DNA from: Owenia fusiformis
Taxonomy: Eukaryota; Annelida; Polychaeta; Sabellida; Oweniidae
Length of the DNA: 64,000 nt
Assembly: GCA_903813345.2 (NCBI GenBank)
Contig: CAIIXF020000001.1
Span: 58,793,885-58,857,884, forward strand
Reading direction: 5' to 3'
The notes under the pieces were generated by a model that searched no databases, was not told the origin of the DNA, and was given only the letters and a program-made list of their open reading frames with translations. This document shows, in pieces, positions 1-56,000 of this stretch. A program made the translations under genes and the position numbers. The first letter of the stretch is position 1; every line of letters begins with the position of its first letter.

Positions 1-2180
1 ATCAGGGTGGACACACTGTACTTACCAGTGTTACATCAGGGTGGATGCACTGTACTTACCAGTGTTACATCAGGGTGGGCACACTGTACTTACCAGTGTT
101 ACATCAGGATGGACACACTGTACTTACCAGTGTTACATCAGGGTGGATGCACTGTACTTACCAGTGTTACATCAGGGTGGGCACACTGTACTTACCAGTG
201 TTACATCAGGGTGGTCACACTGTACTTACCAGTGTTACATCAGGATGGACACACTGTACTTACCAGTGTTACATCAGGATGGACACACTGTACTTACCAG
301 TGTTACATTGACACCCTGTACTTACCAGTGTTACATCAGGATGGACACCCTGTTCTTACCAGTGTTACATCAGGATGGACACCCTGTACTTACCAGTGTT
401 ACATCAGGATGGATACCCTGTACTTACCAGTGTTACATCAGGATGGGCACTCTGTACTTACCAGTGTTACATCAGGATGGGCACACTGTAGTTACCAGTG
501 TTACATCAGGATGGACACACTGTACTTACCAGTGTTACATCAGGATGGGCACACTGTACTTACCAGTGTTACATCAGGATGGACACACTGTACTTACCAG
601 TGTTACATCAGGATGGACACACTGTACTTACCAGTGTTACATCAGGGTGGATACACTGTACTTACCAGTGTTACATCAGGGTGGACACACTGAACTTACC
701 AGTGTTACATCAGGGTGGACACACTGTATTTACCAGTGTTACATCAGGATGGACATCCTGTACTTACCAGTGTTACATCAGGATGGACACCCTGTACTTA
801 CCAGTGTTACATCAGGGTGGACACACTGTACTTACCAGTGTTACATCAGGATGGACACCCTGTACTTACCAGTGTTACATCAGGATGGACACCCTGTACT
901 TACCAGTGTTACATCAGGATGGACACCCTGTACTTACCAGTGTTACATCAGGATGGACACCCTGTACCTACCAGTGTTACATCAGGATGGACACCCTGTA
1001 CTTACCAGTGTTACATCAGGATGGACACCCTGTACTTACCAGTGTTACATCAGGGTGGACACCCTGTACTTACCAGTGTTACATCAGGATGGACACCCTG
1101 TACTTACCACCAGTGTTACATCAGGATGGACACACTGTACTTACCAGTGTTACATCAGGATGGACACCCTGTACTTACCAGTGTTACATCAGGGTGGACA
1201 CACTGTACTTACCAGTGTTACATCAGGATGGACACCCTGTACTATCAGTGTTACATCAGGATGGACACCCTGTACTTACCAGTGTTACATCAGGATGGAC
1301 ACCCTGTACTTACCAGTGTTACATCAGGATGGACACCCTGTACTTACCAGTGTTACATCAGGATGGACACACTGTACTTACCAGTGTTACATCAGGATGG
1401 ACACCCTGTACTTACCAGTGTTACATCAGGATGGATACATTGTACTTACCAGTGTTACATCAGGATGGACACACTGTACTTACCAGTGTTACATCAGGAT
1501 GGACACACTGTACTTACCAGTGTTACATCAGGATGGACACACTGTACTTACCAGTGTTACATCAGGATGGACACACTGTACTTACCAGTGTTACATCAGG
1601 GTGGATGCACTGTACTTACCAGTGTTACATCAGGATGGACACACTGTACTTACCAGTGTTACATCAGGGTGAACACCCTGTACTTACCAGTGTTACATCA
1701 GGATGGACACCCTGTACTTACCAGTGTTACATCAGGATGGACACCCTGTACTTACCAGTGTTACATCAGGGTGAACACCCTGTACTTACCAGTGTTACAT
1801 CAGGATGGACACCCTGTACTTACCAGTGTTACATCAGGATGGACACCCTGTACTTACCAGTGTTACATCAGGATGGACACCCTGTACTTACCAGTGTTAC
1901 ATCAGGATGGACACACTGTACTTACCAGTGTTACATCAGGATGGATACATTGTACTTACCAGTGTTACATCAGGATGGACACACTGTACTTACCAGTGTT
2001 ACATCAGGATGGACACACTGTACTTACCAGTGTTACATCAGGATGGACACACTGTACTTACCAGTGTTACATCAGGATGGACACACTGTACTTACCAGTG
2101 TTACATCAGGGTGGATGCACTGTACTTACCAGTGTTACATCAGGATGGACACACTGTACTTACCAGTGTTACATCAGGGT
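1..2180. repeat. 34-bp satellite array, about 64 copies
   Basis: Tandem array of a 34-bp unit that starts ATCAGGATGGACACACTGTA and ends CTTACCAGTGTTAC. It is already running at the window edge. Main variants are ACACAC/ACACCC and GGATGG/GGGTGG. Phase breaks occur near 307 (shortened unit), 1108 (3 bases extra) and 1241 (shortened unit). A higher-order copy of 15 units is visible: the marker GGATACATTG recurs at about 1433 and 1943, and GTGGATGCAC at 1601 and 2111, both exactly 510 bp apart. All three forward frames are open because the period is not a multiple of three, so the long reading frames here are not genes. The minus strand carries GTAAGTAC in every unit. Confidence 0.97.
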
Positions 2181-3424: not shown

Positions 3425-6400
3425 ATGTCACAAATATTCAGATATTTAAGCTTAATTAGGAAAAAGATCAAGAGAAGAAATGACCAAGATGAGATTGCCA
3501 AGGAAGTTACAATTCCTTTAGATGGCATAGATGGCATTAGAACAATTGAAGGTCCAATTCAGTTCCTTCTCAAACATCGTGAAAGTGGACTCTTTTTGAA
3601 AATAGAAAATGGAAATTTAAAACTGGATATGCCAAGTAAAGATAATGAATCAAAATGTGAGTAAAATCCTGTTTTGTTACATCAAAATGTTAGAAATTTA
3701 TTTTATTTATATGACAAATTTTTCACTTAACTTGGTGTGAACCTACATGTAACATGCAGTCTCAGTCCCATCTTACGGTATTAGGATATAATTATAACTT
3801 ATAAGGAATTATAAGAAAATGATCACTAAGGGTATAAAGTTTTGGACTGTGAGAAGTTTATGCACAATACACATAGAATCATTCATTTTCAACAAAAAAT
3901 ATTCCACAAAACAAAAACACCTAGTTATTTCTATCATGAAGTGTTTAGAATGAGGAGTGATATGATAGAACATGTTTTTATGCGATTTGCTACTTTAGGA
4001 GTTTTTCTAGTGAATTAATGTGATCTAATTTCTATTTCAGTCTTAATTCATGCATACACATTTACTGGAATTGATGATGATGAACGAAGCAGACATTGGC
4101 AACGGCCTGTGAACATAATAATGATGTACGCCATAAACGACTGCTTCATCCAAGCCAAGAAAAAGACAACAACAGTCTACACTGCTGCAGTTATAACAAA
4201 GGTAAAATTTCAGCATTATTAGCTTAATTATAATAAGCATGGCCTCTACTCTTAAATTCTCCTTTTCAATATTTTTGGAACCAAAAAGAACTAGATGCAA
4301 GCATAGTCTTAACTAGACAACAGCAACGCCAAAGCGTAGCAAATCCCATCAAACAGCCATGGCTGGCATATTTACAAGCAAAGTATATAGCAAAAATGGC
4401 AGCCATTTTTCAAAATGGCCACCTTCTACCAAAAGTGTCATAAGACAGTGTGCCATGCTTATAGTATTCACATACCAAATATGAACAAAATCGCTCCACT
4501 ACTTTTCGAGTTATAGTAAAATACATTACAATGGTGGTCATTTTTCAAAATAGCCGCCTTCTACCAAAAGTGTCATTAGACAGTGTGCCATGCTTTTAGT
4601 ATTCACATACCAAATATGAACAAAATTGCTCCACTACTTTTCGAGTTATAGTAAAATACGTTAAATTGGTGGCGGTTTTTCAAAATGGTGCAACGCCAAA
4701 GCGTAGCAAATCCCATCGAACAGCCATGGCTGGCATATTTACAAGCAAAGTATATAGCAAAAATGGCAGCCATTTTTCAAAATGGCCACCTTCTACCAAA
4801 AGTGTCATTAGACAGTGTGCCATGCTTATAGTATTCACATACCAAATATGAACAAAATTGCTCCACTACTTTTCGAGTTATAGTAAAATACATAACAATG
4901 GTGGTCATTTTTCAAAATAGCCGTCTTCTACCAAAAGTGTCATTAGACAGTGTGCCATGCTTTTAGTATTCACATACCAAATATGAACAAAATCGCTCCA
5001 CTACTTTTCGAGTTATAGTAAAATACGTTAAATTGGCTGCGGTTTTTCAAAATGGTGCAACGCCAAACCGTAGCAAATCCCATCGAACAGCCATGGCTGG
5101 CATATTTACAAGCAAAGTATATAGCAAAAATGGCCGCCTTCTACCAAAAGTGTCCTTAGACAGTGTGCCATGCTTATAGTATTCACATACCAAATATGAA
5201 CAAAATCGCTCCACTACTTTTCCAGTTATCGTAAAATACGTTAAAATTTCGGCCATTTTTCAAAATGGCCACCTTCTACCAAAAGTGTCATTAGACAGTG
5301 TGCCATGCTTATAGTTTTCACATACCAAATGTGAACAAAATCGCTCCACTACTTTTCGAGTTATAGTAAAATATATTAAAATGGCGGCCATTTTTCAAAA
5401 TGGCCACCTTCTACCAAAAGTGTCATTAGGCAGTGTACCATGCTTATAGTATTCACATACGAAATATGAACAAAATCGCTCCACTACTTTTCGAGTTATA
5501 GTAAAATACGTTAAAATGGTGGCGATTTTTCAAAATGGCCACCTTCTACCAAAAGTGTCATTAGACAGTGTGCCATGCTTATAGTATTCACATACCAAAT
5601 ATGAACAAAAAGTATTTCAAGTCAACGAAAAACAAAAATGAAAAAACAAATAGAGCCATCCCATTCTGATACCCACCTTGCCTTCCTGTTTTTCAACTTG
5701 TAATTTGTTCTCATTTAGTTGTTTACATTTTGTGTTTTGATGAAGGATAGTTATACATATCTAACACTGCAAGAGTATATATCAACCCACCATGGACTAT
5801 AGGCAGAGGGGGAGAAACACCAGGGTTCAAAGATGACATACGCTTATAATGTAAATCTGTATTGAGATGACACGGTCGCTGATTGGTCAAAAGTCGACAA
5901 ACAAATGACGTCATCAATGGCGGTTTCAAAATTTTCGAAATACGCTTCGAATAATATTATGTTCATTTCTGGCGTGTTAACCAATATCATAGCTTCTCAT
6001 TTCACATCAAGATAAAGAAAGGTGTACGGAATATGCCTATATCAATTATAACATCCCATCGAAGTGTAGTATTTGATAACTAGCCGATGGAAATTCGAAC
6101 GAACGAAGGTGGTAAGCAAGAGAGGTAATTATGTCTGTCATCTTGAAACTCTGGGGCTTTCCCTCCTCTTGACAATAGGGTATATGTGTATAAAATATGA
6201 ACAAAATCGGGCCAACGAGTTACTAGTATTGCCTGGACGTATGTACAGACGGACAGACGGAGGCGTTCCCTATATCCCTCCGAAATTCGTTTGATGGAAT
6301 AATTAGTTAATTAATGTTATTTGGACCTCTTAAGCATATGACTTCAACATTATTCTATTTGACTGTTTATATTTGTAGAAAGGCAAGCCTCTGAAGAAAG

Positions 6401-6897
6401 ACACATCCAAAGTTGAGGAGGATGACCCAAGGTTTTTCATGTTACACAAAACACATGATGATGCAATCTCATTGGAATCTTTCTTAAGTCAACGTAAGGA
6501 TATGTAAATATTTTCATCGAATATACATACAAGCTTTCAATTCAGGTGTTTTGTACTCTTAAATCACCATCTTATTGACATAAACTAGTCAAAAACATTT
6601 TTTACTTTAAAACCACATGATTCACACGATTTCTAACTAATGTATAAAATATAAGACTTGATTATATGCAAATTTTATGTTATATACATGTATTTTTCAG
6701 AGTATTACCTCGCAAGTGAATACAATGGGAGGGAAGGTGACCCAAGACCCCAGCTATATCATCTACCATGTGATAGCCACAGGAACTCCAATAACTATGG
6801 TGCAAAATTTGATTTTATTTCTATGAACGAGTCAGCTGAAGAATATGCTAAGCATCTTAAAGAACAATATATCAGGCAAGGGAGGAGACAAACATGA
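3425..6897 (+). CDS. Candidate IL-1/IL-18-like leaderless beta-trefoil cytokine
   Basis: Four exons join in phase: 3425-3656, 4041-4201, 6379-6493, 6701-6897 (donors GTGAGT, GTAAAA, GTAAGG; acceptors TTTCAG, TTGTAG, TTTCAG), giving 234 residues. The start is the first ATG after an in-frame TAG at 3389. There is no signal peptide; residues 1-20 are basic (RKKIKRR). Asp33 and Asp36 precede the first predicted strand (QFLLKH, 46-51), followed by GLFLKIENGNLKLD (55-68). The C-terminal half reads RFFMLH (149-154), then SLESFLSQQYYLASE (162-176), then AKFDFISM (204-211). This order matches the IL-18/IL-1 pattern of an FF strand, an 'FES...P-x-[FY]-L-x' signature strand and a final hydrophobic strand. 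Against the classical IL-1 signature it differs at about four positions (Leu for Phe, Phe for a small residue, Gln for Pro, Ser for Thr). The main alternative is a divergent FGF-type or other beta-trefoil. The gene structure is strongly supported; the family is an inference. Confidence 0.62.
4313..6300. mobile_element. Tandem-core, ACGG-microsatellite element (pearl/HINE-like) in intron 2
   Basis: This block makes up nearly all of the 2.18-kb second intron of the cytokine-like gene; without it the intron would be about 190 bp. Its core is a monomer of about 135 bp (TGTGCCATGCTTATAGTATT, then CTCCACTACTTTTCGAG), repeated roughly eight times. The left part is re-copied at 4690 and 5060. The right end has GACGGACAGACGG followed by CCCTATATCCCTCCG. 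Sub-terminal inverted repeats are ATCCCATCAAAC (4343-4354) and GTTTGATGGAAT (6289-6300). A left flank, tandem core, ACGG microsatellite and right flank is the architecture known for bivalve pearl/CvE elements, now classed as helentron-associated. The assignment is by architecture only. Confidence 0.7.
5613..5800 (+). repeat. Copy of the host gene's own 3'UTR inside its intron 2
   Basis: These 188 bp match 6967-7154 at a constant offset of 1354 bp with no indel and one substitution (T at 5678, G at 7032). The source lies 70-257 bp after the stop codon of the cytokine-like gene. The copy sits directly after the last tandem monomer of the element at 4313-6300 and before its right-hand part. Confidence 0.95.
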
Positions 6898-7238
6898 CTA
6901 TGATGCCTTCATGGACCAGGAAAACATGAGTTACCAGTACATATACAAGTGGAATCTCTTCAGCTTTATTTCAAGTCAACGAAAAACAAAAATGAAAAAA
7001 CAAATAGAGCCATCCCATTCTGATACCCACCGTGCCTTCCTGTTTTTCAACTTGTAATTTGTTCTCATTTAGTTGTTTACATTTTGTGTTTTGATGAAGG
7101 ATAGTTATACATATCTAACACTGCAAGAGTATATATCAACCCACCATGGACTATGGACTATTTGTAAATACTGTATTATAGGAACATATTTGTGTTATCA
7201 GTTAGGATGGACTCAATTACAAGTTAATGTAACTTTAT

Positions 7239-8846: not shown

Positions 8847-8930
8847 TGTACACCAATCCAATAAAAGGTTTAGCTGAAAATTCATTAATAACAAATTCAT
8901 AATAAAAAATAACTAACATCGAAAAGTAAA

Positions 8931-8963
8931 GGCAAGGCATTAACATGCAAAATGTCACCACCT
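8931..8963 (-). repeat. Dispersed motif GTGACATTTTGCATGTTAAT (minus copy)
   Basis: Reads GGTGGTGACATTTTGCATGT on the minus strand, followed by TAATGCCTTGCC. The same motif is found at 19432-19465, 19662-19694, 32150-32176 and 36501-36534, in each case at or near the edge of a repeat block, so it looks like the conserved end of a transposon family. Confidence 0.6.
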
Positions 8964-9925
8964 GCCATTCGATACAGATGTCAAATGTCAACCAACAAAC
9001 ACTGTCACAAAAAGTTGGAGACCATAACAATATGTTGGTAGTAACAGTAGAAGCGATTGTTCTGACTGAAAAAGAAATGAATATCTATGAAAACACACAT
9101 TTTAAAATAGCGAAACAACTGCAGGGTCCTCCTATTAATACGGCAAACAGTGCATGTTTAGCACCATTGGGGTGGAATAATATTACAACTATAATCTTAC
9201 AAAGAAAGCACATGTTTTTATGGCAGTTACTCATGTTACCAGTGGATGTAGTCTATAAGAAAATTGCCATCATAAGAGTGTGTCAATGGTTGAACACCAC
9301 GCTTACCCACAAAAAGAACAATTGTCATTCTCCTATCTGGGATATACTTAACATAGCTGAAAGGTTAAATTTAATAGATCATGTAATGCAATGGCTTTTC
9401 TATGGAGTATCTGTCCCGATGTCACAGTGGAAAAGTATTGTTAAGGATGTGTTGCACAGACATGAGTTGGAAAAATGGAGGTCTAGTTGTATGATGTACA
9501 GGTCTCTCAGTACGTTCAGAAATGTTGTTAAGGTTATCAAACCCATTAAGTGGTGGATATTGGCAAAAAATGACCCATACCTAATTAGACCATGTATAAC
9601 CCTGGTGAGACTTTTGTGTGGAAACTCATCACTCATTTGTGAAAAATATAAAGATAGTGAGACATGTCCACTTTGTCATAGGGCAGTGCAGACACTGCAA
9701 CACTTATTATTTCACTGCCAGGCAGTTGAGCATCTAAGTCATCAATTAAACAATATTATTGAGAACAATAACCTATATGGCACTGATTTAGAAAAGATAA
9801 GACTTATCCTGGACAGTAGTCAGTTTGGAGATAGGGACTGTCTATTAATATTGAGGACAATACATGCAATTTATGAAATGCACAGGGATGCATTAAAGCA
9901 ATCATCGAACCCAAGGGGCATATAA
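8945..9925 (+). pseudogene. 5'-truncated non-LTR retrotransposon, ORF2 C-terminus
   Basis: An uninterrupted frame of about 326 codons matches the C-terminal end of a LINE reverse-transcriptase polyprotein. It has the thumb-like LQRKHMFLWQLLMLP segment and then the zinc-knuckle CPLCHRAVQTLQHLLFHC (Cys-x2-Cys-x7-His-x4-Cys spacing) that follows the reverse transcriptase in Jockey/CR1-type elements. The catalytic YADD palm is absent, so the copy is 5'-truncated. The apparent first ATG lies inside the dispersed motif at 8931-8963 and need not be a real start. The A-rich end near 10030-10060 fits a LINE tail. The open frame suggests a young copy. Confidence 0.75.
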
Positions 9926-15369: not shown

Positions 15370-18300
15370 ATGGCAGGTCCAAGATTTCTGAAAATATTTC
15401 GTTGCAGATATTCATCACATTTAGTATCTGACAGACAATTTTCAGCATTAAAAACAGTCCAGCGATGTTTATCAACATCTCGGACATCGTTTGCCGAATC
15501 TGCGGATTTGACAAAGGAGGCAATATTTGGAAATGACCATATTGAAATGAGGCGCTCTCTGAACAAGGTTTGTGCATCTGTCAACAATGTAAACAACAAT
15601 CATAAATGTTACAGAACAATATAAATTATAATTGCCATTTGAAAATTTTCATCATACCTTACAATTAACATTGATGGCTTCGTGTAATTCAATAAAATGT
15701 GCTGTTCTCGGGATCAAAGTATGTGTTTCTCTCTGGTTTTCTTTGAGACAGTAGTTCAGTAACTTGAATCAAGAGTTGGACTTTGTTCTCAGTTGACTCT
15801 TGTAGTTGTTTGATCAAGGTATAAATAAATGGAGAATGCCAAAGATAATGGGTTATACATTTTATTGCACTCTGGAGATGATAGATGTTGCACACCTTAC
15901 CTAAATAGCATGCAATTTATTACCCCCTTCATTTTGTCTTTTTAGACAATCAAGATGTTTCAAAACAACATACATGTACCTGTACCGTCACATTTATCAA
16001 AATAATGATATAGTGTAGTAGATTCTAATATAAATAGTACTATATAAAATATATTTTATGCATCTCTATTCTGGACATATTGCATAAACATACATGTATC
16101 ATACAGGTGTGCATGGGAAGATTTCATTTTAGTCAGTAATTATGGCCAACAACAATTTTACAACTACATATTGTACAAGTGTACATGAATGTACATTTAC
16201 AATATGTTTAGCAGCTGGTGTCTTCGACCTTGGTTCCTTTTACATTTTTGTATTAAACCCTTACATTATGTGTGTTTCAGATCATTGAAAAGGAGATTAA
16301 TCCTTATGTCGACCAGTGGGAGGAAGAACGAAGTTTCCCAGCACATGAGGTGTTTAAGAAGTTAGGAGATGCAGGTTTACTTGGAGTCTGTAAGCCTGTA
16401 GGTAAGAATACAGATCTGAATGATGTACAGTACTACTGCTACTGTTAATTAAAGTTGTTTGTCTGGTTGGAATATAGTAGTTCTTGTGCAATTCATCGAC
16501 AAAGAACAACACACATCAACTTATTTCCAATTGTGTGACATGATGTGATGTATCAATATGTAATTTAATACGATTGAATATTAATTTGATATGATGTTAT
16601 GATGTGATATGATTTTAATCCAATGTGATGTAAATGAATGTGATATACAATATGATAGTATATGATGTATTGCCAATGTTCTTACATGTATGTGAGAGGG
16701 TTTGTATTTCTAGAGAATGGTGGGCTGGGTCTGGATTACTCTTACAGTGTAGCAGTGGCAGAGGAACTGGGTAACATCAAATGTGGAGCTATCCCCATGG
16801 CAATAGGTGTGCAAACAGACATGTCTACACCAGCATTAGCAAAGTAAGACTCATGTACAGAAACACCTGTTTAATTGGAATACCACTGGGACCAACCAAA
16901 AGTGTTCAGATTAGCATGCATACAGATTTCAAGGTTTCTTTGTTTATGAGTTAGAAAAGACAACACAACTGGGACCCAGAACAAGTGTTCATATTGAGAG
17001 GTGTTTTGGATTAGACAGGTTTTACTGCATTTCATGTGGCATTACATGGTCTAGCTCTAATCCAATGGCAGAAAATTATTCATGTGCACCATCTTTAGTT
17101 GATAAACCTTTTTCATTCTCCTCAATGGGTGCACTGTACATCGTTCAAAACCCAGATCCATCCCTGACCTCTAAGAGGATAACCTACAATAACATTTGTA
17201 CTGAATGTGCTACTTAGGTTTGGCAGTGATGTGGTAAAGAAAGAGTTCCTGGAGCCTTCCATCAAGGGAGATTATGTGGCCTGTCTAGGTGTAAGTGAAG
17301 TGGGGTCTGGATCAGATGTAGCAAGTAAGTACAAATAAGTATAGGTATTTAAGGTAGGCAGCGTAAAGTGAATTATCTACCTTACAGTTCTTACAGTTCC
17401 AGACCTACCTTAGTACACATATTTCAACTCAACTAAATAAAGAAGCTTTTTTCACTTGAAATCTTATCCGGAAGAATTTATCCATATTTAACAGTTTATC
17501 GATCTTGCGAGGAAGATGCCATTGATAAGTTATCGTAGTTGTTCATGTTGTTTTGAATATGATTTCATTTGCAGGTATTGTTACCAAAGCTGAAAAGCGA
17601 GGTGGTGACTACATCATTAATGGGGGTAAAATGTGGACAACTAATGGGGCCCAGGCTGACTGGATGTGTCTTTTAGCCAACACAGGTGAAGGGAAACCTC
17701 ATCAGAATAAATCCCTGCTCTGCATGCCCATGAACCTTCCTGGTGAGATATTTTTAACATGGTTTTTACACTTCTCATCAAGCCCTCTAATAGAGTGATG
17801 ATACCCTTTCCCCATTCAGGGGCTTAATGCGAGACTATTACAATATGGATTTGTGTAATAATTATTATGTCACCACCAAAAGTGGTGACATATTGTTATG
17901 GTCTCCGTTTTTTTTTGCGACAGCGGTTGGCGTCCGGCGGTTGGCGTCCGGCGGTTGGCGTCCGGCGGTTGGCGTCCGGCGGTTGGCGTCCGGCGTCTGT
18001 AACAATTTCTTACAACTTCCTATAACTTAACAAATACTGTTTAGACTGACTTCAATTTTTTTCTAAATCATCTACATGTTCTCAGAAGTTCAAATCTGAC
18101 TTTAGATTTGACATTTGACCTTCAATGACCTTCTCAAGGTCAAAAAGGTCTTTTTTCAACTTGCTTCACATGGACTAAATTTTTTTTCAAAATCATCTAC
18201 TTGTTCTCAGAAATTCAAATCGGACTTTAGATTTGACATTTGACCTTCAAATCTGACTTTAGATTTGACATTTGACCTTCAATGACCTTCTCAAGGTCAA

Positions 18301-21300
18301 AAAAGGTCAAAAAGGTCTGTTTTCAACTTGCTTCAAATTGACTAAAAAATTTTTTCAAAATCATCTACGTGTTCTCAGAAATTCAAATCTGACTTTAGAT
18401 TTGACTTAAGATTTGACATTTGACCTTCAATGACCTTCTCAAAGTCAAAAAAGGTCAAAAAGGTCTTTTTTCAACTTGCTTCAAATTGACTAAATTTTTT
18501 TTTCAAAATCATCTACATGTTCTCAGAAATTCAAATCTGACTTTAGATTTGACATTTGACCTTCAATGACCTTCTCAATGTCAAAAAAGGTCAAAAAGGT
18601 ATTTTTTCATCTTGCTTCAAATTGACTAAATTTTTTTTCAAAATCATCTACATGTTCTCAGAAATTCAAATATGACTTTAGATTTGACATTTGACCTTCA
18701 ATGACCTTCTCAAGGTCAAAAAAGGTCAAAAAGGTCTTTTTTCAACTTGCTTCAAATTGTCTAATTTTTTTTTTCAAAATCATCCACATGTTCTCAGAAA
18801 TTCAAATCTGACTTTAGATTTGACATTTGACCTTTAATGACCTTCTCAAGGTCAAAAAAGGTCAAAAAGGTCTGTTTTCAACTTGCTTCAAATTGACTAA
18901 AAAATTTTTTCAAAATCATCTACGTGTTCTCAGAAATTCAAATCTGACTTTAGATTTGACTTAAGATTTGACATTTGACCTTCAATGACCTTCTCAAAGT
19001 CAAAAAAGGTCAAAAAGGTCTTTTTTCAACTTGCTTCAAATTGACTAAATTTTTTTTTCAAAATCATCTACATGTTCTCAGAAATTCAAATCTGACTTTA
19101 GATTTGACATTTGACCTTCAATGACCTTCTCAATGTCAAAAAAGGTCAAAAAGGTATTTTTTCATCTTGCTTCAAATTGACTAAATTTTTTCTTTTCAAA
19201 ATCATCTATATGTTCTCAGAAATTCAAATATGACTTTAGATTTGACATTTGACCTTCAATGACCTTCTCAAGGTCAAAAAAGGTCAAAAAGGTATTTTTT
19301 CAACTTGCTTCAAATTGACTAATTTTTTTTTTCAAAATCATCTACATGTTCTCAGAAGTTCAAATTTGACTTTACAAGTTCTCAGAAATTCAAATCTGAC
19401 TTAAGTTTGAACTCATAATATTGTGAGCAACTAGGTGGTGACATTTTGTCATGTTAATGCCTTGTAGTTATTTCTGTTTAGGTGACATTTCACCTTTAAT
19501 GACCTTCTCAAGGTCAAAAAAGTCTGTTTTCAACTTGCTTCAAATTGACCAAATTTTTTTTTCAAAATCATCTACATCTTTCAGAAGTTCAAATTTGACT
19601 TTACAAGTTCTCAGAAATTCAAATCTGACTTAAGTTTGAACTCATAATATTGTGAGCAACTAGGTGGTGACATTTTGTCATGTTAATGCCTTGTAGTTAT
19701 TTCTGTTTAGGTGTTACAGTAGCAAAGAAAATAGACAAGTTGGGAATGTGGTCGTCGGACACTGCTCAGATCTACCTTGAAAATGTGCGTATACCTCAGA
19801 GCTACATCATCGGAGAGGAAGGAATGGGATTCACATACCAAATGTTGCAGTTTCAGGAAGAGCGTCTCTGGGCAGTTGCTGCAGGTTGGTTCCCTGACAG
19901 ATTGAGCCAAAGAAATTTGAGCTCATTTTGTCATAAATGCAATTTTGCAGTTAAAGTGACACCAAAGAATAGAAAGAGTAAAATTTTAGAAGCAATCTTT
20001 TTAAAAAGGATGCCAGTGTAACCCTTACGGTTCTTATTTTATTATTTAAAAATTGAATTGAGATATCTAATCAAAACTATTAAATAGAAGGAAGAAAAAA
20101 TCAGTAGTCACACCTTTCAAGTCAATTTTTGGAAATAAGGCTGTTATGAATATAAATAAAAAAGTATGAATTTTTAGGGGGAGGGGGTCTCTAGATCTAG
20201 ATCATGCTTCTCATGTTTTATCCAATGATTCCAGCCCTGTTGCCTCTAGAAGAGTGTATCAATGCAACCGCAGAGTACTGTAAAGCAAGGATGGTCTTTG
20301 GTCAGCCACTTCTCAACAATCAGGTCATTCACTTTAGACTGGCTGAGATGCAAACTGAAGTTGAAGCATTGAGGTCATTGCTTTACAGAGCTACAGGTGA
20401 GTATGCATTGTAGTTATGCAATTTATACATAGAGGTTATTCTGTATAAGGCTCAGTATATCAAGATTATCCAGAGGAAAAAATTGCATGGCTCTGCTATA
20501 TCATCCATCTGAATCATTTTTCTCCCAAAAATTGTCACATCTTTGCTACATCTTAACATTCATCATTGGTCATATCATTTATATTTAAACCATACATTGT
20601 AAGGGGCCATGCCAATATAATAATTTTGTTCACAGCAATAATACATAATGGGAGTTTTGTAGAAGTGGCACAATGTTATTTGCAGGTATGTACTTGGAGG
20701 GGAATGATGTCACTAAGCTTGCCTCTATGTGCAAGTTGAAGGTAGGCAGACTGGCCAGAGAGATCACAGATGGCTGTCTCCAATACTGGGGAGGCATGGG
20801 CTACACCAGTGATGTCCTCATAAATAGATTCCACAGGTCAGTTTGCTAGCTTGGCAAGCCACATTGGCAAGCCACCTCTTGCCTATTCCTAAGTTATGAT
20901 CGATTTTGAACCTTAATGTGACATATGAACAGTTAACAGGTTAATTTTTAGTAGTTCTAGCAAAAAATAAAGAACACTAAAAATGGCTAACATTTTTCAA
21001 GATGGCCACTATGATGTTTGGCTTCTGAGCAGAATTTGTAATCCCACAGGCATATGTGTATCAAGAATTGGTCAGATACATAAGTAGATGAATGTTTTTT
21101 GTATATCCCAAAAAAGTTTGATTCAATAATATATTACATGTATGCTCATGCCGATGCCTACACCTTGTACGGAAATGAGATATATGGGAGATACCCATAT
21201 GTTCACGGATAGTGGGAAGTCCTCCATCTAGGAGGTATATACACCAGGTAATGCGAATAAAAATTAAAAAAATATGAAAAATATGGTCACCTGTCCTCTA

Positions 21301-26021: not shown

Positions 26022-27759
26022 TTATTTTTCTTGAATCTCAATTTCATTCCCATCAATAGCAGCATCATCGTTATTATTGTTGTTACTATCATAAACCATA
26101 GGTTTGCTATTGTTAGGTATATCATCGGAGGAATGCTGGACACTACTGTATGTGTGATCTGCGATATGAGGTGCCACTAGGGGTGGCATGGGTAATTCCT
26201 GTTTATTATCACAGTTGTCAGGACATTCTCTAGAGTGTTTATTCATCAATGCATTGGTGCACGATCGAAAATCACAACCCTTGCAGGTTATCACAGAGCC
26301 CTTGTAGCATTTTATGTGGGCCTGGAGTGAAACTTTCTGGAATGCTCTATAGTTACATCTTGGACATTTATGTGGTCCGTTGTTGAGGGCTGTGTGCGTC
26401 AGCCGATGACGTTGACAGTTTCCAGGGTAGGAGAAAGCAGCATCGCATATATCGCATATGTATGGTTTTATCCCTGAAAACAATTCAACCAAATGTTTTA
26501 ATCTTAAAATATTAAATTATTAAAAAAGATTATGTATTATATTGTTTTGTTATTAAGTTATTAGAGAAAAGTTGGAAAAATATTGCAATAAGTTATGCAC
26601 CATTCAAATGTTTGGGTGGGACCCCTACCTTAGGGAAGGCCAAGAATTTTGGCATAGTCCTTTGTACTTTGGCTTATCATTTGTGTTGGTGACATAATAA
26701 AGCAGATTTCTATGTAAACTGCCTTTTCTTTGTTACCAGGTGCATGTATTGTTGATCATTTTACCATAAGTATACAACATTCATGACAAAACAACATATG
26801 TTGGGCACAATAATATACATTTATAACATTTAATACAACATCATTTTTCAGTTTTATACTTACTGATGGAAATCCTTTGGGAAAGCTTTAAGTAAAAATA
26901 CAAATGGGTTTATAATTTTGTAAAAAAATGGAATTCTGAAATACAAGAACTGACAATTCAAAATTATTGATTAAATCATAGGGTTTTCACTTAGCAGCTT
27001 ATCATTTTAAGAGCAATACCTAAGACCTTCAAATTAAAGTAGTAAAATAGCACCATGGGTACTGGGTTCATTTGGTGAAAGTGCTTTTAAGACTGATATT
27101 GACCAGTCAAAGCAAGGCCATGTTTAGACTGAGGACTGAAAGTATGATATACACTTTTTCATGGCATCTTTATTTTGATAAAATGGAAGCAAAAGTTTAA
27201 GCCGAGAGAACAGTGATCAGGCCCATAGCCAGGGGGGGGGGGGGGGAGCGGCCGCAACATTCCAGAAAATCCATAATCAAACTCTTCAAGAATAAACACC
27301 TCTTTAGGCTTAAACTCAGATTTTATTATGCTCCAATTGTAAACATTATAGACATTTTATTGCAGTATTATAACCTTTCTCACCTGCATGTTTATTCATG
27401 TGCATCTTAAGCAATGGTTGGTGCCCCGTCGTATAGTCGCAAACATCACAGGAATAAGGCTTTTCAGTGGAATGTGTGTATAGATGTCGACGAAAGTTCC
27501 CCGTATCATTTGTCTCATATTCACAAGATGAGCATTTGTATTTCTTTGGTTCATCTACATTATGTACTTTCATATGACGTGTCAAGTTTTCTGATCGATT
27601 TGTAATGTAATCGCAATCCAAACAGCGGAAGAGATGTTTTGGAGTATGGCATCTTTCATGGCGCTTGAGGTTGTATAAGGAATCTCCAACATACATGCAT
27701 TTGTTACAGTATTCCTTTGATTTAGTTCTATCAGTCTTTCTCGTTGTTAATTTTGGCAT
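26022..27759 (-). CDS. C2H2 zinc-finger protein, seven finger-like motifs
   Basis: Two coding exons on the minus strand, 27759-27384 and 26473-26022, join in phase 1 (CAG|GTGAGA; TTTTCAG) to give 275 residues. The start is an ATG 8 bp after a TTTTAG acceptor, so a 5'UTR exon probably lies upstream. Finger motifs in order: EYCNKCMY..H..CH, FRCLDCDY..H..VH, YKCSSCEY..H..TH, YSCDVCDY..H..KH, YICDICDA..H..TH, then KCPRCNY with the last His missing, and ITCKGCDF ending in Cys (C2HC). The fifth finger is built across the intron (HAG|IKPY linker). The tail is acidic with an Asn-rich run. CDY-type spacing resembles REST-like or CTCF-like arrays, so a nuclear DNA-binding role is likely; target unknown. 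Confidence 0.85.
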
Positions 27760-28079
27760 TTTGTTGATCTAAAAGTACAAGTGATAATGCATTAAAGTAA
27801 TGAGCAATGAACATGTGATTTAGTGATTCCAAAATGGAGTAAAAACACATATGAAGTACATTAGATCTTTTCAAGGTTTTCGAAGCTAATATGGATTGTC
27901 AAAATGAATGTATATACATGTATAAAGTATGTAACTGAGTAAAAAACTAACTTAGGGCACAGAAGATCTATGTGATCTTAACTTTTAAAAATCTTGTATT
28001 TCAGTACATGGGCTTTCAAGAGATAATTGTACGATCTCCTTATCATGCAAATTCTTGCAGAAGGCCATTGTGAGAAATC

Positions 28080-32176: not shown

Positions 32177-32179
32177 TTC

Positions 32180-34099
32180 TTGTATCTATTTCATGTGCGC
32201 AACACATTTACACATTCTCCTATCTATTTCATGTGTCCATTGTCCAGCACATTTTCACATTTTTGCATCTATTTCATGTGTGCAACACATTTACACATTT
32301 TCGTATCCATTTCATGTGTGCAATACATTTACAAAGTCTCTTATTCATTTCATATGTCCAACACATTTACACATTCTTGTATCCATTTCATGTGTCCAAC
32401 ACATTTACACATTCTCGTATCTATTTCATGTGTGTAACACATTTTCATATCTATTTCATGTGTCCAACACATTTACACATTTTTGCATCTATTTCATGTG
32501 TGCAACACATTTACACATTCTCTTATTCATTTCATATGTCCAACACATTTACACATTTTCGTATCCATTTCATGTGTGCAACACATTTACACATTCTCTT
32601 ATTCATTTCATATGTCCAACACATTTACACATTCTCGTATCCATTTCATGTGTCCAACACATTTACACATTCTCGTATCCATTTCATGTGTCCAACACAT
32701 TTACACATTTTCGTATCTATTTCATGTGTCTAACACATTTACACATTCTCGTATCCATTTCATGTGTCTAACACATTTACACATTCTTGTATCCATTTCA
32801 TGTGTCCAACACATTTTCACATTTTTGTATCTATATCATGTGTGCAACACATTCTCGTACGCATTTCATGTGTCTAACACATTTACACATTCTCGCATCC
32901 ATTTCATGTGTGCAACCCATTTACACATTTCTCGTATCCATTTCATGGGTGCAACACATTTACACATTCTCGTATCCATTTCATGTGTCTAACACATTTA
33001 CACATTCTCGTATCCATTTCATGTGTCCAACACATTTACACATTTTCGTATCTATTTCATGGGTGCAACACATTTACACATTCTCGTATCCATTTCATGT
33101 GTCTAACACATTTACACATTCTCGTATCCATTTCATGTGTCCAACACATTTACACATTTTTGTATCTATATCATGTGTGCAACACATTTACACATTCTCG
33201 TATCCATTTCATGTGTCTAACACATTTACACATTCTCGTATCCATTTCATGTGTCTAACACATTTTCATATCCATTTCATGCGCGCAACACATCTACACA
33301 TTCTCATATCCATTTCTTGTGTGCAACACATTTACACATTCTCGTATCCATTTCATGTGTGCAACACATTTACACATTCTCGTATCCATTTCATGTGCGC
33401 AACACATTAACACATTCTCGTATCCATTTCATGTGCGCAACACATTTACACATTCTCGTATCCATTTCATGTGCGCAACACATTTACACATTCTCGTATC
33501 CATTTCATGTGCGCAACACATTTACACATTCTCGTATCCATTTCATGTGCGCAACACATTTACACATTCTCGTATCCATTTCATGTGCGCAACACATTTA
33601 CACATTCTCGTATCCATTTCATGTGCGCAACACATTTACACATTCTCGTATCCATTTCATGAGCGCAACACATTTACACATTCTCGTATCTATTTCATGT
33701 GTGCAACACATTTACACATTCTCGTATCCATTTCATGTGTGCAACACATTTACACATTCTCGTATCCATTTCATGTGCGCAACACATTTACACATTCTCG
33801 TATCCATTTCATGTGTGCAACACATTTACACATTCTCGTATCCATTTCATGTGCGCAACACATTTACACATTCTCGTATCCATTTCATGTGCGCAACACA
33901 TTTACACATTCTCATATCCATTTCATGTGTGCAACACATTTACACATTCTCGTATCCATTTCATGTGCGCAACACATTTACACATTCTCGTATCCATTTC
34001 ATGTGCGCAACACATTTACACATTCTCGTATCCATTTCTTGTGTGCAACACATTTACATATTCTTGTATTTATTTCATGTGTCCAACACATTTACTCAT
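32180..34099. repeat. 38-bp satellite array, about 50 copies
   Basis: The unit runs CATTTCATGTGCGCAACACA then TTTACACATTCTCGTATC. The left half (to about 33300) is heterogeneous (GTCCAAC, GTCTAAC, GTGCAAC variants, shortened units). The right half, about 33390-34050, is nearly uniform GCGCAAC/GTGCAAC, which suggests recent amplification. As with the 34-bp array, all three forward frames are open, a consequence of the period, and are not genes. The array ends about 120 bp upstream of the calumenin start codon. Confidence 0.97.
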
Positions 34100-37200: not shown

Positions 37201-38647
37201 AATGTCACCAGATTAATATGAACAACTCCAAACTATGAAATCTTTGTTTTCCAGATGGTTGAAAGTGATGACAAAAAGTTCAAAGTGGCTGATGTTGATG
37301 GAAATGGTTTGTTAAGCAGAGAAGAGTATGCTGCATTCCTCCACCCATATGACTACCCCCATATGTTTGATATAGAGGTGGACAGGACCATGGAGGATAC
37401 TGATAAAGATGGCAATGGTGTAGTATCAATGGAGGAGTATCTAACAGGTAGAGCTAAGGGCATTAAGGCTAATTTAAAGATGGCAGCACATGTAGAATTT
37501 TGTTATAAACCCATATTCTCAAAATCAATTCGTTTGTTGCGTACCTTACTACCTCTCTGACAATTGTAAAATCACCGGGGCAAACCAGTTTAAAGAAATC
37601 TTAGGAAAGTCCACCAACATTGAACAATAACAAATCAGTAAGTGATACTGAATCAACATTGCTCAAGAGATAACACAAATGATAATGTTGAAAATGATGC
37701 TACCACTAAATCAGTTGGTTAATGATGAACTTTAGGAAAAATATTAATTTATAATTGTACAGTGGGCTTTGCCGATGAAGAGGTTAGGAGAAATTCTCAA
37801 AATCCTGTGTCCCACTTATTACTGTCAGTATCTTAAAAATTACTTCTATTTCTTTTAGAAGAATTCCTATTTTATTAAAAAAATTGTAAATATCATGTAC
37901 GAGACACAATAACAATTTTTTTTAAAAGTAGCTCACATTTTCTCCTAATTTTAACATCTGCTTAGAGAAGGATTGAGGTACAATTGATCTGAAAAAATGC
38001 TAGGAAAAAACTTGACTACATTGCCATCTTTATTAATGGTTCATTTCCATAATCTATGATAAACTTCTATACTTCCTTGTATGATAATCTCACATTTTAG
38101 CTCATTTCCCCATGTCCTTTTTTGTACACCTCCCTTTACTACATTGGTTTAGATTTTCAAAGATTGAGAAATGAGTATATTTTCTGAGAGTCGGCTAGTT
38201 TTGCTTTAAGCACTTGTAACAGCCCATCCATACCTCACCTCTTAGTAGGAAGGAGGGAGGGGTTAAGAGACATGATAGAAATAGTCAGTTCATTTAAATG
38301 TTTTATCAAACACTTAAAAGAGAAATCTTTACGAAATAAATTCTGACCTTTAATTCTTTCCAGAAGATCTTGATGAAGAAAGTGTAATTGCTGAAAAAGA
38401 ACAATTTGCAGAATATGATGTTAACAAAGATGGCGTACTAGACAGAGAGGAAATCAGAGCCTGGGCTATTCCAGAAAATGATGAAATAGCTGATGAAGAA
38501 GCTGAACACTTAATAGAGGAGACTGATAGAGATAATGATAAAGTATTAAGTAAAGATGAGATACTTGAAAACGTTGATTTGTGGGTAGGCAGCCAGGCAA
38601 CAAACTATGGTCAGACTCTACAAGATATGGATCACGATGAGCTATAA
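34220..38647 (+). CDS. CALU: Calumenin (CREC family), ER-lumen EF-hand protein
   Basis: Five exons join in phase: 34220-34382, 35299-35440, 36232-36397, 37255-37447, 38364-38647 (948 nt, 315 residues, the size of vertebrate calumenin). The signal peptide is MKMMTKTFLVLALGVLSTLA. Six EF-hand loops follow: DTNGDGNVNKEE, DLDGDEAVSWVE, DVDGNGLLSREE, DTDKDGNGVVSMEE, DVNKDGVLDREE and DRDNDKVLSKDE. The second lacks a clean loop position (DEA), so its binding may be weak. The C-terminus is DHDEL, an HDEL retention signal, as in calumenin/reticulocalbin. It is a low-affinity calcium-binding protein of the secretory pathway. Paralogue choice (calumenin versus reticulocalbin) rests on length and on AAFLHPYDYPHM, typical of calumenin. 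The acceptor and donor signals are all GT-AG. Confidence 0.95.
35590..35880. repeat. Tandem repeat of about 116 bp in calumenin intron 2
   Basis: Three copies of a unit with TTCTGACCAGAGTTGGTCTA, AATTATGCCTATATTCATGA and GAGGAGGTCACATTTTCCAA. Confidence 0.85.
36501..36534 (+). repeat. Dispersed end motif in calumenin intron 3
   Basis: GGCAGGTGATGACATTTTGC followed by ATGTTAATGTCTAG. It stands without an obvious tandem core, so it may be a solo end. Confidence 0.55.
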
Positions 38648-47200: not shown

Positions 47201-48448
47201 ATCCTTCATTTAAGAGTTTCATTAATTACTCAATTCAGAAATTATGGAAAGGAGTGAAATAGGCTTGGACCAAGGTTTTCCCATTCCGACAAACAACACT
47301 TGGCTTTAATCGTCTAGCTAGTTTTAAATGTCCTCCATTTAATTTGGAAGAACAGAAAGTAGAACATGTTTCATCAATGTAAATCAATGAATGTACACTA
47401 TACCAACCGACCCCGGGTTTTGAGAGAATTAATCCATCACATTTTTTTTATTTAAATGAGTTGGTTTTATAATTTGAAAAGATGGATTGGCTGAATTTCG
47501 CGTATGTGTTCAGTTAACCTACGCACGACTCGATCCAAAAGTACTCACTTGGATCCACTCATCTTGACTAGCTGGTAATTGTAGCCCCCATGATCCCGTG
47601 AAGTCAATCTTTGCTTTATCGGGTTCCGATCCTTCTTCAAATGAGGATGCAGTCAGCAGAGCTGTGTTGTCAGTTGCTACAAGTTCACTCGAGCAAGCAT
47701 CGTGTGCAGAACACCCATAGAGTTCTAGTCCGAGTGCAATTACCCCATGCCAGGATTTGATTTCTAGGCGGACAATTATAGCATTGATCCTCGGCAGTAT
47801 AAGATGTGTTACAACGTCGTCGCCATTGATATTTGCTTGCCATGGTCCTCTTACCGTCCAGCTGGTAACTTCAGCGTGAGGTTTGTGCTTCAAGTAATAC
47901 TCTGTTACCCAATGGCTTCCACCATCTCCCCGTGTACTCATTTTGTCAATGGTGGTCAACTGACGGAGAGTCACCTGCAAGAATTGAGAGGCGTCACTTA
48001 CTGCTGGCGTCCATCCTGTTGAGTCTATGTAGGCGTTGTAGGGTCCGTATTGCAAGTGATCGTCATTCTGTGTTGTTGAGGTTTCAAATATAACGATGGG
48101 ATCGTTATTTATCAATGGGATTTTACAACTGTCTGGGTCGTAATGGATTTGGTACCCCGGATAACCACCAGGAAAATTGCAATTTGCGTTCTTTAAAAAG
48201 CAGCGATTTGTATAATCATAGTAGAATGCAATGCATCCACCTGTACTAAAACAGATATTATAGCAATCGTCTAGTGTTACGGATGAATGACTCGAAATGT
48301 CACTTCCAGCACATCCTCCATCACGTTTTGTCCAATTTTCATAGTCTGATGGTTGCACGCTGCCACGAATAGCCCCTCTTGTTTGACTAAGACATACTAA
48401 CAGTCCAAGTAAGGTAGTTGATTGAAAAATCCTGGACAGTCTTGCCAT
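41257..48448 (-). CDS. Secreted PAN-discoidin-discoidin protein with kringle cassette
   Basis: Four exons on the minus strand join in phase: 48448-47549, 43941-43800, 42373-42104, 41831-41257 (1887 nt, 628 residues; 538 without the kringle). The signal peptide is MARLSRIFQSTTLLGLLVCL. Then come a PAN/apple-like domain (CAGSDIS..TLDDCYNIC..GGCIAFYYDY..CFLKNANC), a first F5/8-type C domain ending LGLELYGC, and a second that begins CSSELVA, continues QDEWIQ|VEFSGLRIIDG..TSYKVASRSIDG and finishes FVRIYPVTWETKPDMRFELL. The 90-residue kringle exon (CKTDTLGDAYRGTLS ... NYCRNA ... GPWCYTTDSSTRWEYCDV) is class 1-1 and falls inside that second discoidin domain. About 140 unassigned Cys-containing residues follow, rich in CACNPCG-like motifs. 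Extracellular adhesion or lectin-like roles are plausible; function unknown. Confidence 0.85.
42104..42373 (-). other. Class 1-1 kringle cassette exon (90 codons)
   Basis: 270 bp, phase 1 at both ends, acceptor TTCCAG and donor GTGAGT. One complete kringle with six Cys. Because both flanking junctions are phase 1 as well, the exon can be included or skipped without changing the frame. Confidence 0.85.
44410..45018. mobile_element. Foldback element, about 600 bp, in the first intron
   Basis: AAAGGAATATTCCTTGCCAG at the left end faces TTTGGCAAGGAATATTCCTT at the right. Further in, GAGCTGCCATCTTTTAAG and CTTTAAAAGATGGCAGCTTAC, and GATGTCATCAACTCTCAACT and AGTTGAGAGTCGATGACATC, are also inverted. 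The axis is near 44715. Confidence 0.85.
45629..46467 (+). mobile_element. MITE family A, copy 1 (about 840 bp)
   Basis: The termini are TTAAAGTCCCCGTCTAAAGT and the complement of TTAAAGGCCCCATATAAAGT. Copies are at 57241-58056 (reverse) and 60591-61224 (shorter). No coding sequence. Confidence 0.85.
46468..47548. other. Intronic sequence without features
   Basis: Part of the first intron of the PAN-discoidin gene. Some loose repeats of 'aaacatggaaa' around 46850-47090. No exon recognised. Confidence 0.5.
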
Positions 48449-48889
48449 TTTTTTAAGTGTGCACTCTATGATCGCCACATCTTGTCTTTATTGCTTTTGC
48501 GAGGCTCTCTGCTTCTGTTATAGAGACCGTATCGAAGGCGAGGTTTTGTTGTAGACACCAAACACAAACTTGTATCGAAGGTGACAATCACAGGGTGGGC
48601 CATTGCAGATTTAATACAGCTGAAATCGCTACTGCTTTGAGTCCATGTGTACATGAACCTTTATCGTCAAAATGTTATTTTGATATCATCTTAGGTAAAA
48701 TGAAATATGTACGATGCAGATAATCAAGGTTCTTACATCATAATGATTCGGGTTGCAATTGCTTTAGATGTGCTTAGATATGGTATATGGTCATTATGAT
48801 AGTACTCATAATAGCATCTTTCTGTTTCACCTGAAACATCTCAGGGCTGAGAATGAATGAGATGTCATGGCTTATCATGTGGCTAACAT

Positions 48890-53071: not shown

Positions 53072-56000
53072 CTATAAAACATTACTTATTGCTGTAGACA
53101 TCATTGGTTGTTTTGATTTCACCTTCGTATGTAAATGTGATGCGGACAGAACAACATCAGGTTCTGCTATTTCACAATGTCTGTTAGTCGTAGGTGAACT
53201 GTCTCCACAGAATGAGTTGGGACGACTTAAATTAGTTTCTCTATGTCTTCCAACATCTTCTGGTAATTCTAAAAGGCCAGCACATAGCTGTTCTCTCTCC
53301 TCAGTACTAAACTCTTTGAGGTCTATATCCTCTATGCGGAAGGATTTTCTTAAATTTTCAACACGTTTTTTCTCCGCGTATGGATTCAATACTAGCTTGG
53401 TATTGTTATATTTGTTCTGCTCGTCGGTGTCATATTTGTCTAAAATGCCAGGAATTTTCTCCAAAACGAGACTTCGCCGAGGTGGTTTCCTAATTTTACA
53501 CCTGAAATGAGAGAATTTTACCAATAATATCAAACATTATGTATGGGAAACCCAGGTATCATCATTAAGTATATGCTGAATCAAAATTGTTTGCAAGCCT
53601 GTCAAAAATGTTCGTTGCTCTTTAAGATAAATGTAAACAGAAATTATATCAAATAATGTAACAGTTAGTACAAAATGAAGTTGATGTTGATTTTTTATGG
53701 AAAAGTCACATAACCATTGACATAGTATGCAGCCTTGTTTAGCACCAATACTATTGATTTGGTAAAATACATTACGACTATATGCGTCTTACCTTAAATA
53801 GATACAGATTGCAGCAATCACTGAGATGATGACAATCACAAGTCCAATTATCAGAGACAATGTACGGATGAAATATGGCTGGAATTGTTCATTTGAAAGA
53901 CTCGTGTTTGTACCATTGGCAACAAATACATTAACACCTGCAAATATTGAAGAAAGCTTTAATAATGATACGATTTTCTTTTTCCTGGTTTCTAGCATGG
54001 TGGTAAGCCACGCCCTCTCCATCTCTATCCTTCTGGAGATCTGCGATGCAACAGAGAGAGAGAGAGAGAGAGATGCTATGAGTATCAGAATGGGTTTCTA
54101 GTGATATGAATATGTACATATGATAACAAAACAGTTAGAGGGGAGATAAATTCAGTGAAACTTTAAGAGAATAAAATCTGTATACCATGTTAACATACAT
54201 TTATTTAGATGTGAAGACTTCCGATTCATGACATTCTATTGGTGTTCATTCTATGAGTTTTAAATCTTCCTAACCATTACTTCTCAAATTTGTTTCCAAG
54301 TTATTGATATTCTCATCTGCATGTTAGCATGGCATGATATATTGTATTGCTTAAAATCTGAAGATTTGTATTATTTGTGTTCACTTTATGAGTTTCAAGT
54401 TGTTCACCTATTGTAAACATAATCATCACACAGCCTCGTTCACATTTGAAATAAATATGTTCAGTTGCAGTAGACATTACCTTGGCAAGGTTTTCCACTG
54501 TAACAATCAACCCTTTCTATAGTGGAACCAATGCAGCTGCTTCCTCCATTTCTTGGTTCAGGGTTGCTACAGCTCCTCTCTCTAAATATAACACCGACAC
54601 CACATGAAACGTTACAACGTGTCCAGGCACTAAACTCAGTCCATCCACCATCAACAGCAATACATGAATCAACAAAACTACAGATTCCGTATATCGTCTC
54701 TGTTTTGTTCCCTACACACTCCTCGCCACCGTACATAGGAACTGGATTGTCGCACATTCTCCGCCTAGATCGTGTTCTCGTACCATAGAATGCAAGTCCG
54801 TCGCCATGGTAACACAAGGAACTATTACAACCGCTCCAACCTGACCATCTGGACCAGTCAGAGAAGTTACCATTCACTAAAATAACAAGGGATGTCTTAG
54901 ATGGAGTTCACAATCAAATTAAAAACTGGTATAAAACTCTTCAACCCTAAAGTAAAAAGAAACGTTATATTGTTTAGGCTCTCTGTATATTCTATACTTA
55001 GTCATCCTTCAAACGAAAATGTCCAGAACCAATCCACAATTCTTAGTACTTATGGAACCATTTTGAAATTATATCGATGTACCTGGACATAGTCCTATAT
55101 CTATGCATTCAGCTATCTCGCTAGGTTGGCCCTCACAGTTACTTCCACTGAACTTTGGTTTTGGGTTATCACATTGTCTAAATCGCTGTTTGGTGACTTT
55201 CCCACATGTGGCTCCACAGTTGCTCCATGGCCCAAATGCTCCCCAACCTCCATTCACTTTAAATGATTACCATAACAAAGTTTAGACAAGCACGCCATTG
55301 TCAATGCATGAACAAGATTCACCATATTTGATAAATGTGTTTGTGTCATGTTGAGTTGTCACAATATACAACGTGGGCCAAAATGTTCAAAATTTTATTT
55401 TGCTCTAATATTTTTAACGATTTAGGGGTGTCAATAATATTTTAGCAGGTAATGTAACAATAAAACTAATCTACAGCAAATCCCAAAATATCTTTGTTGT
55501 TTTCTACACTTATAGCACGCTGAATAACTAACATCAGCAGTTAAAGGGCGACCATTTTTGATTCCACTCTAACCACAAAAGGCGCTTGATCCCAGAGTTA
55601 ATGCCCTAAATATTATAATTCACACTTTTGGTACATAAAGTAAAGTTGATAGCACACAAATACCTGGACAGTTTGTCACTAATGTGCAGTTGATGACTTG
55701 ACGAGTGCTACCAATGCAAGGTTGGCCACCATGCTGAGGGGTAGGATTGGAGCAATCTCTGATTCTGTACATCACGCCTGCCTCACATGTCCTACTACAG
55801 CTGCTCCAGGGACCAAACTCACTCCATCCACCATTTACTAAATATTATATATGTTTAGGTATATGTATACATTTATGATAATATACAGCCTCCATATACG
55901 CACGGTAACAAACATGTCATATGATTACTGTTGACTTAGTTATATGCTTTCCATCCGGTACCTTCCAATTTCCCATACTCAAGTACGAGTATAAGTAATT

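Follow-up and report, generated by a model that had tools for sequence, protein, structure and literature searches.

The gene on the forward strand at positions 3,425 to 6,897 of a 64,000-nucleotide stretch of the Owenia fusiformis genome (hereafter the window; C1:58793885-58857884 of a 498-Mb assembly) most likely encodes a very divergent protostome homologue of the IL-1 family, with a beta-trefoil of the FGF/IL-1 class. IL-1 is favoured over FGF because two distant paralogs join a PDZ domain to a trefoil, much as reported for fish nIL-1F (novel IL-1 family member), because the C-terminal half resembles IL-18 and IL-33, and because the Pfam FGF model has no match. IL-1 identity is not proven, since the Pfam IL1 model is equally silent, the PROSITE signature reaches 4/9, profile support is unstable and the structural models are of low confidence. 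A sequence-only reading of the same DNA had proposed an IL-1/IL-18-family cytokine in a protostome-looking genome. The genome is indeed that of an annelid, and the family claim stands in part, upheld by the trefoil profile, the C-terminal half and the PDZ paralogs and weakened by the negative and unstable results just named. New here are the tandem paralog, the PDZ-trefoil paralogs, the trefoil evidence with its reversed control, and the link to nIL-1F.

Gene model and tandem paralog

The window gene is real, and together with a tandem paralog it forms a pair under purifying selection. Spliced at three introns, all of them GT-AG, its four exons give a single reading frame of 234 codons (Table 1). 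The public Owenia record P0001 is a protein of 166 aa that matches the C-terminal 166 residues of the product at 100% identity. The paralog, P0002 (244 aa), lies ~33 kb upstream and is 57% identical to the window protein. Its introns match all three of the window gene in place and phase, the last three exons are equal in size in both genes (161, 115 and 197 nt), and one additional intron is found upstream. Over 234 codons, dN/dS between the two is 0.27 (NG86) or 0.21 (YN00), with NG86 values of 0.23 for exon 1 and 0.19 for its residues 34-77, and with 0.04 (NG86) or 0.18 (YN00) for exon 3. Such conservation supports coding from at least the first presumed trefoil strand, and the spliced 234-residue protein put forward by the sequence-only reading is confirmed. 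How far the gene extends in the 5' direction is uncertain: P0001, the public model, begins at M69, within exon 1, and P0002 has the extra upstream intron. By eye, a segment of ~190 bp occurs twice, at window positions 5613-5800 in intron 2 and at 6966-7150, soon after the stop codon.

The motifs of the C-terminal half are as previously described, namely RFFMLH, the seven residues KTHDDAI, SLESFLSQQYYLASE and AKFDFISM. The reported lack of a signal peptide also agrees with the N-terminus, which is not hydrophobic (best 12-residue Kyte-Doolittle mean 0.81 over the first 30 start positions), as assessed by this hydropathy heuristic rather than by SignalP. By the same measure, no hydrophobic N-terminus is present in P0002 or P0123 either, and P0124 has one if its first methionine is used. 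The two Asp residues beside the first strand of the window protein are not conserved in P0002, and their reading as caspase-type cleavage sites was set aside on that account.

Table 1. Features of the window (window positions) and the two distant paralogs
Feature	Position	Strand	Description
Tandem array	1-2178		34-bp unit x 64 copies
Exon 1	3425..3656	+	Residues 1-77 and first base of codon 78; ends in phase 1; N-terminal part without leader, presumed trefoil strands 1-3 (GPIQFLLKH..GLFLKI..LKLDM)
Exon 2	4041..4201	+	161 nt, phase 1 to 0; presumed strands 4-7 (FLIHAYTF..PVNIIMMYA..CFIQAK..AAVITK)
Tandem repeats of intron 2	4323..5610	+	367-bp and 135-bp units; non-coding
Exon 3	6379..6493	+	115 nt; insert between presumed strands 7 and 8, KGKPLKKDTSKVEEDDP
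Presumed strand 8	6430-6447	+	RFFMLH, in exon 3
Presumed strand 9	6469-6480	+	SLES, in exon 3
Exon 4	6701..6897	+	197 nt including stop; presumed strands 10-12 and basic C-terminal tail
Presumed strand 10	6703-6720	+	YYLASE, in exon 4
Presumed strand 11			In exon 4
Presumed strand 12	6802-6825	+	AKFDFISM, in exon 4
331-aa open frame	8930-9925	+	No Pfam match at E 0.001; by eye, resembles the remains of a retroelement (CPLCHRAVQTLQHLLFHC)
Acyl-CoA dehydrogenase exon	17529-17795	+	PF02770
Tandem repeats	17923-19713		After the acyl-CoA dehydrogenase exon
C2H2 zinc-finger exons	26022-26516, 27346-27768	-	Second with REST-like fingers
Tandem array	32177-34099		38-bp unit x 51 copies
EF-hand exons	37222-37557, 38354-38644	+	
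F5/8-type C exon	47519-48487	-	With sub-threshold PAN-like match
Thrombospondin type 1 exon	54461-54907	-	
P0123	Contig C5		346 aa; single open frame; 33% identity to P0002 within the matched region
P0124	C1 at 3.8 Mb		427 aa; single open frame; 31% identity to P0002 within the matched region

Distant paralogs with a PDZ domain

Four family members were found in the Owenia genome, the window protein, P0002, P0123 and P0124. When P0002 was compared with its own genome, the 10 matches corresponded to its four exons, the four exons of the window gene, P0123 and P0124; P0123 as the query matched itself, P0124 (52%) and one window exon (E 0.07). Over 342 codons P0123 and P0124 are 51% identical to each other, with an NG86 dN/dS of 0.27, and in both a PDZ domain lies N-terminal to the domain that aligns with the trefoil part of the window protein. 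Full-length scans with Pfam PDZ scored 21.7 bits for P0124 and 16.1 for P0123, both below the cut-off of 23.2; with the stretches cut out, P0124 passes at 24.9 bits and P0123 fails at 18.8. With a profile built from both PDZ stretches, the PDB gave 78 matches at E<=0.1 (best 1.4e-8), the best 60 of which are PDZ-carrying proteins. P0123 compared with the PDB returned 46 rows, the best being PDZ proteins and none being named as a trefoil. The Pfam scan detected no PDZ domain in the window protein. A PDZ domain and an IL-1 domain in one protein is the architecture reported for fish nIL-1F, and PDZ joined to a trefoil is known to us from no other family; this raises our estimate for a true IL-1-family relation from perhaps somewhat below even to slightly above it.

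Evidence for the trefoil fold

Sequence profiles support a predicted beta-trefoil in the window protein. When the Owenia-only profile was compared with PDB sequences, designed beta-trefoils constituted the best 12 of 17 matches, with E from 2.4e-5 as summed over repeats, and the reversed profile gave 0 matches. The match covers strands 1-3, and the designs are presumably derived from FGF1. AlphaFold models were of low confidence, with pLDDT 31 from a two-row alignment and 37 from a five-row one. The top five Foldseek matches of the Owenia-only model of pLDDT 37 were IL-18, IL-38, FGF18, a botulinum toxin-complex chain and again IL-18, at non-significant E values of 0.86-1.2 that, on a low-confidence model, amount to a weak hint. 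Equally a weak hint, the VIA rows for this model mix FGF, fascin, lectins and IL-1. Of the checks suggested by the sequence-only reading, structure prediction with Foldseek yielded low-confidence models and non-significant matches to IL-18, IL-38 and FGF18, and the Pfam search matched neither IL1 nor FGF. LIMLE was considered as another trefoil-like protein, on passages of PMC3976354, and set aside.

In an internal repeat test, shuffles equalled the observed score in 31, 58 and 1 of 60 cases for the three pairs, two of which are thus at chance level. This outcome, the low pLDDT and the lack of any Pfam domain above cut-off in the trefoil part would suit a protein that is no trefoil and whose likeness is due to chance, but the designed trefoils among the PDB matches and the silence of the reversed profile make such a reading highly improbable.

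Intron phases and the FGF/IL-1 class

Intron positions and phases support the assignment of the window gene to the FGF/IL-1 class of predicted trefoils. Its phases are 1,0,1 and those of P0002 are 1,1,0,1. The first window-gene intron (phase 1) follows the end of exon 1, just before presumed strand 4, and the second (phase 0) lies just after presumed strand 7. An FGF gene of Owenia itself (contig C2, L018/L017) has a 104-nt middle exon flanked by phases 1 and 0, its splice sites being hand-picked from candidate sites and the equivalence of position with the window gene being judged by eye. In IL-1beta, the introns are placed at the same strands. The last three intron phases of vertebrate IL-1beta are given as 1,1,0 in passages of PMC4880838, and P0002 shows this IL-1beta-type 1,1,0 and then, at its end, a further intron of phase 1. 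Phases in common with FGF are not specific to IL-1; being shared with the Owenia FGF gene and agreeing with IL-1beta, they point to the FGF/IL-1 class and make no choice between its two families.

Comparison with IL-1 and FGF profiles

Pfam IL1 (PF00340) gave no match up to E 10 in the window protein and its three paralogs, and none across the Owenia genome, with control genomes silent too. This is no proof of absence; diverged members may escape the model, and HMMER filters apply. Pfam FGF (PF00167) matched none of the four Owenia proteins, and its four FGF exon matches in the genome all fall on contig C2, away from these genes. The PROSITE IL-1 signature, its proline position being the one we assume, reaches 4/9 in all four Owenia proteins, a value also reached by 1933-1995 of 2000 shuffles. 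Among 12 IL-1 members it ranges from 5/9 (IL-33) to 9/9, with 6/9 for IL-18, and FGF1 scores 5/9. Part of the pattern was taken from passages of PMC7144542.

Profile-profile comparisons were carried out with hhalign, the Owenia profile consisting of four sequences. It aligned with seven human IL-1 members at Prob 74 (E 2.8e-5 for a single comparison), with a larger IL-1 set at 34, with a twelve-member IL-1 profile at 16, with mammalian IL-18 at 29, with mammalian IL-1beta at 5 and with three FGFs at 1. Taken alone, the tandem pair gave Prob 50 against IL-18 and 17 against the seven IL-1 members, and the trefoils of the PDZ pair gave 0.4-4.3 against four IL-1 profiles and 1 against FGF. In the alignment of Prob 74, presumed strands 2-10 are seen by eye opposite IL-18 strands, strand 3 being off by one, and exon 3 is part of the region best matching IL-18 by profile. 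Column shuffles reached the observed score in 0/360 cases for each of three IL-1 profiles and in 10/360 for FGF. Reversed against forward scores were 29.5 vs 37.1 for the seven-member IL-1 profile, 24.9 vs 26.7 for the twelve-member one, 14.7 vs 29.5 for IL-18 and 12.4 vs 17.9 for FGF.

Random six-member subsets were also compared, 40 of IL-1 and 40 of FGF. Prob exceeded 20 in 8/40 IL-1 and 0/40 FGF subsets, with median scores of 23.0 for IL-1 (reversed 23.2) and 17.4 for FGF (reversed 12.0). The forward score was higher than the reversed one in 20/40 IL-1 subsets and in 37/40 FGF subsets, the FGF scores being the lower ones; FGF matches had a Prob of at most 2.5, and the four best span 12-22 columns. 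As a scale, mammalian IL-18 gave a median of 36.8 against IL-1 subsets without IL-18, and the IL-18 and IL-1beta profiles matched one another at Prob 17. Taken with the reversed controls, the subsets thus indicate an IL-1 signal that lacks robustness, though it is at times strong and long, and an FGF signal that is weak, short and directional. Strands 7 and 8 are 22-24 residues apart in Owenia, 14-20 in four IL-1 members and 11 in FGF1, with hand-chosen anchors, so that the Owenia spacing resembles that of IL-1 more closely than that of FGF1.

The FGF-type alternative of the sequence-only reading has lost ground with the negative Pfam FGF search and stays alive as an intracellular FGF-class adaptor. 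In this main rival, of appreciably lower probability than an IL-1 relation, a trefoil of the FGF-homologous-factor or fascin kind would bind a partner in the cytosol and, in the sister proteins, be anchored by the PDZ domain, with no cytokine role or special link to IL-1. The absence of an evident leader, the intracellular nature of PDZ domains, the resemblance of the trefoil start to FGF1-derived designs, the mixed VIA rows, the phases in common with FGF and the directional FGF signal are all compatible with it, but the location of every FGF exon match away from these genes, the low Prob and short span of the FGF subset matches and the strand 7-8 spacing speak against it.

A search of 5.8 billion proteins with phmmer and a two-sequence profile matched only the two Owenia records, and in the PDB neither the window protein nor that profile matched anything but CdiI, at E above 1. 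A protein search with IL-18 and IL-1beta returned 215 proteins; among the 120 matches listed, the rows that name an organism are mammals, and some rows are nameless. That two protein searches gave no relative beyond Owenia, that reversed controls often score as high as the unstable IL-1 profile signal, and that PDZ is a common domain would all be expected of a trefoil from another family, lectin-type or lineage-specific for instance, that converged on IL-1-like loops and acquired its PDZ domain independently of nIL-1F. The intron phases shared with the Owenia FGF gene and agreeing with IL-1beta run counter to such convergence, which appears unlikely.

Candidate receptors

The Owenia genome has 123 TIR matches. 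Inspection by eye of 30 TIR loci distinguished 14 leucine-rich-repeat frames and 3 TIR exons of one cluster, the other 13 being unreadable; among the 17 readable loci, leucine-rich-repeat and EGF-TIR genes only were seen and no Ig-TIR gene was identified. The cluster (L049/L050, G000:C10:3181000-3198000) contains three similar TIR exons (SDGKEYDAFISY...), each after a membrane-spanning exon. Exons farther upstream are EGF-like, as judged by eye rather than by Pfam scan, and the cluster probably encodes EGF-TIR receptors, an unusual type. IL-1R-like genes are reported in protostomes in passages of a review (PMC9020223).

Proposed origin, mechanism and significance

Under the preferred IL-1-family reading, the PDZ plus IL-1 architecture common to nIL-1F and Owenia would be the ancestral state, from which the tandem pair (the window gene and P0002) would derive by loss of the PDZ domain. 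A wider version, to which we give slightly less than an even chance, is that the ancestral PDZ-IL-1 form persists as fish nIL-1F and the Owenia PDZ-trefoil pair, the PDZ domain having been lost in parallel in vertebrate IL-1/IL-18-type ligands and in the Owenia tandem pair. The protein, having no evident signal peptide, would be synthesized and stored in the cytosol, the PDZ forms possibly being retained by binding the C-terminal tails of partner proteins. Upon cell damage or proteolysis it could be released, and might then act as a short-range alarm signal via a TIR-domain receptor.

In passages of PMC9020223 and PMC9382457, IL-1 orthologues are stated to be absent outside vertebrates, with receptors preceding ligands. 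Titles, abstract openings and passages of the literature and preprints in PMC yielded no report of a protostome IL-1-family gene. If the proposed relation is true, the IL-1 family is older than vertebrates and its origin moves back to the bilaterian ancestor; the family may have begun as a PDZ-IL-1 protein, the fish PDZ-IL-1 form being suggested as primitive; and candidate, testable ligands become available for invertebrate IL-1/TIR receptors reported without ligands. Since the Pfam IL1 model is blind to them, the Owenia sequences offer new seeds for finding further members.

Comparison with known systems

With FGF, the Owenia proteins share the predicted beta-trefoil and the phases 1 and 0 flanking the middle exon. 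They differ from it in having no PF00167 match and longer inter-strand spacing than FGF1, and in that separate FGF genes are present in Owenia on contig C2.

As in IL-18 and IL-33, no leader is apparent. In the alignment of Owenia with IL-18, FF of strand 8, LES/FES of strand 9 and YLA/FLA of strand 10 face each other. Identity to IL-18 is 28% over the best 60 columns (16% over 110 aligned columns for the seven-member IL-1 profile), the Owenia spacing is longer than that of IL-18 before strands 5, 8, 11 and 12, and the PROSITE signature lies below those of both IL-18 and IL-33 (4/9 vs 6/9 and 5/9).

nIL-1F occurs in teleosts, coelacanth and ghost shark. It contains an IL-1 domain and a PDZ domain, the lumpfish form having 352 aa, and grass-carp work cited by PMC7144542 has it binding the IL-1 receptor and dampening IL-1beta, as given in passages of that paper. 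The lumpfish gene has 7 coding exons, whereas the Owenia PDZ forms are single open frames and the window gene has no PDZ domain. In Owenia the PDZ domain precedes the trefoil; the PMC7144542 passages give no domain order for nIL-1F. Compared by architecture and not by sequence, lumpfish nIL-1F (352 aa) and Owenia P0123 (346 aa) are alike in carrying a PDZ domain and an IL-1 or predicted trefoil domain in one chain of ~350 aa.
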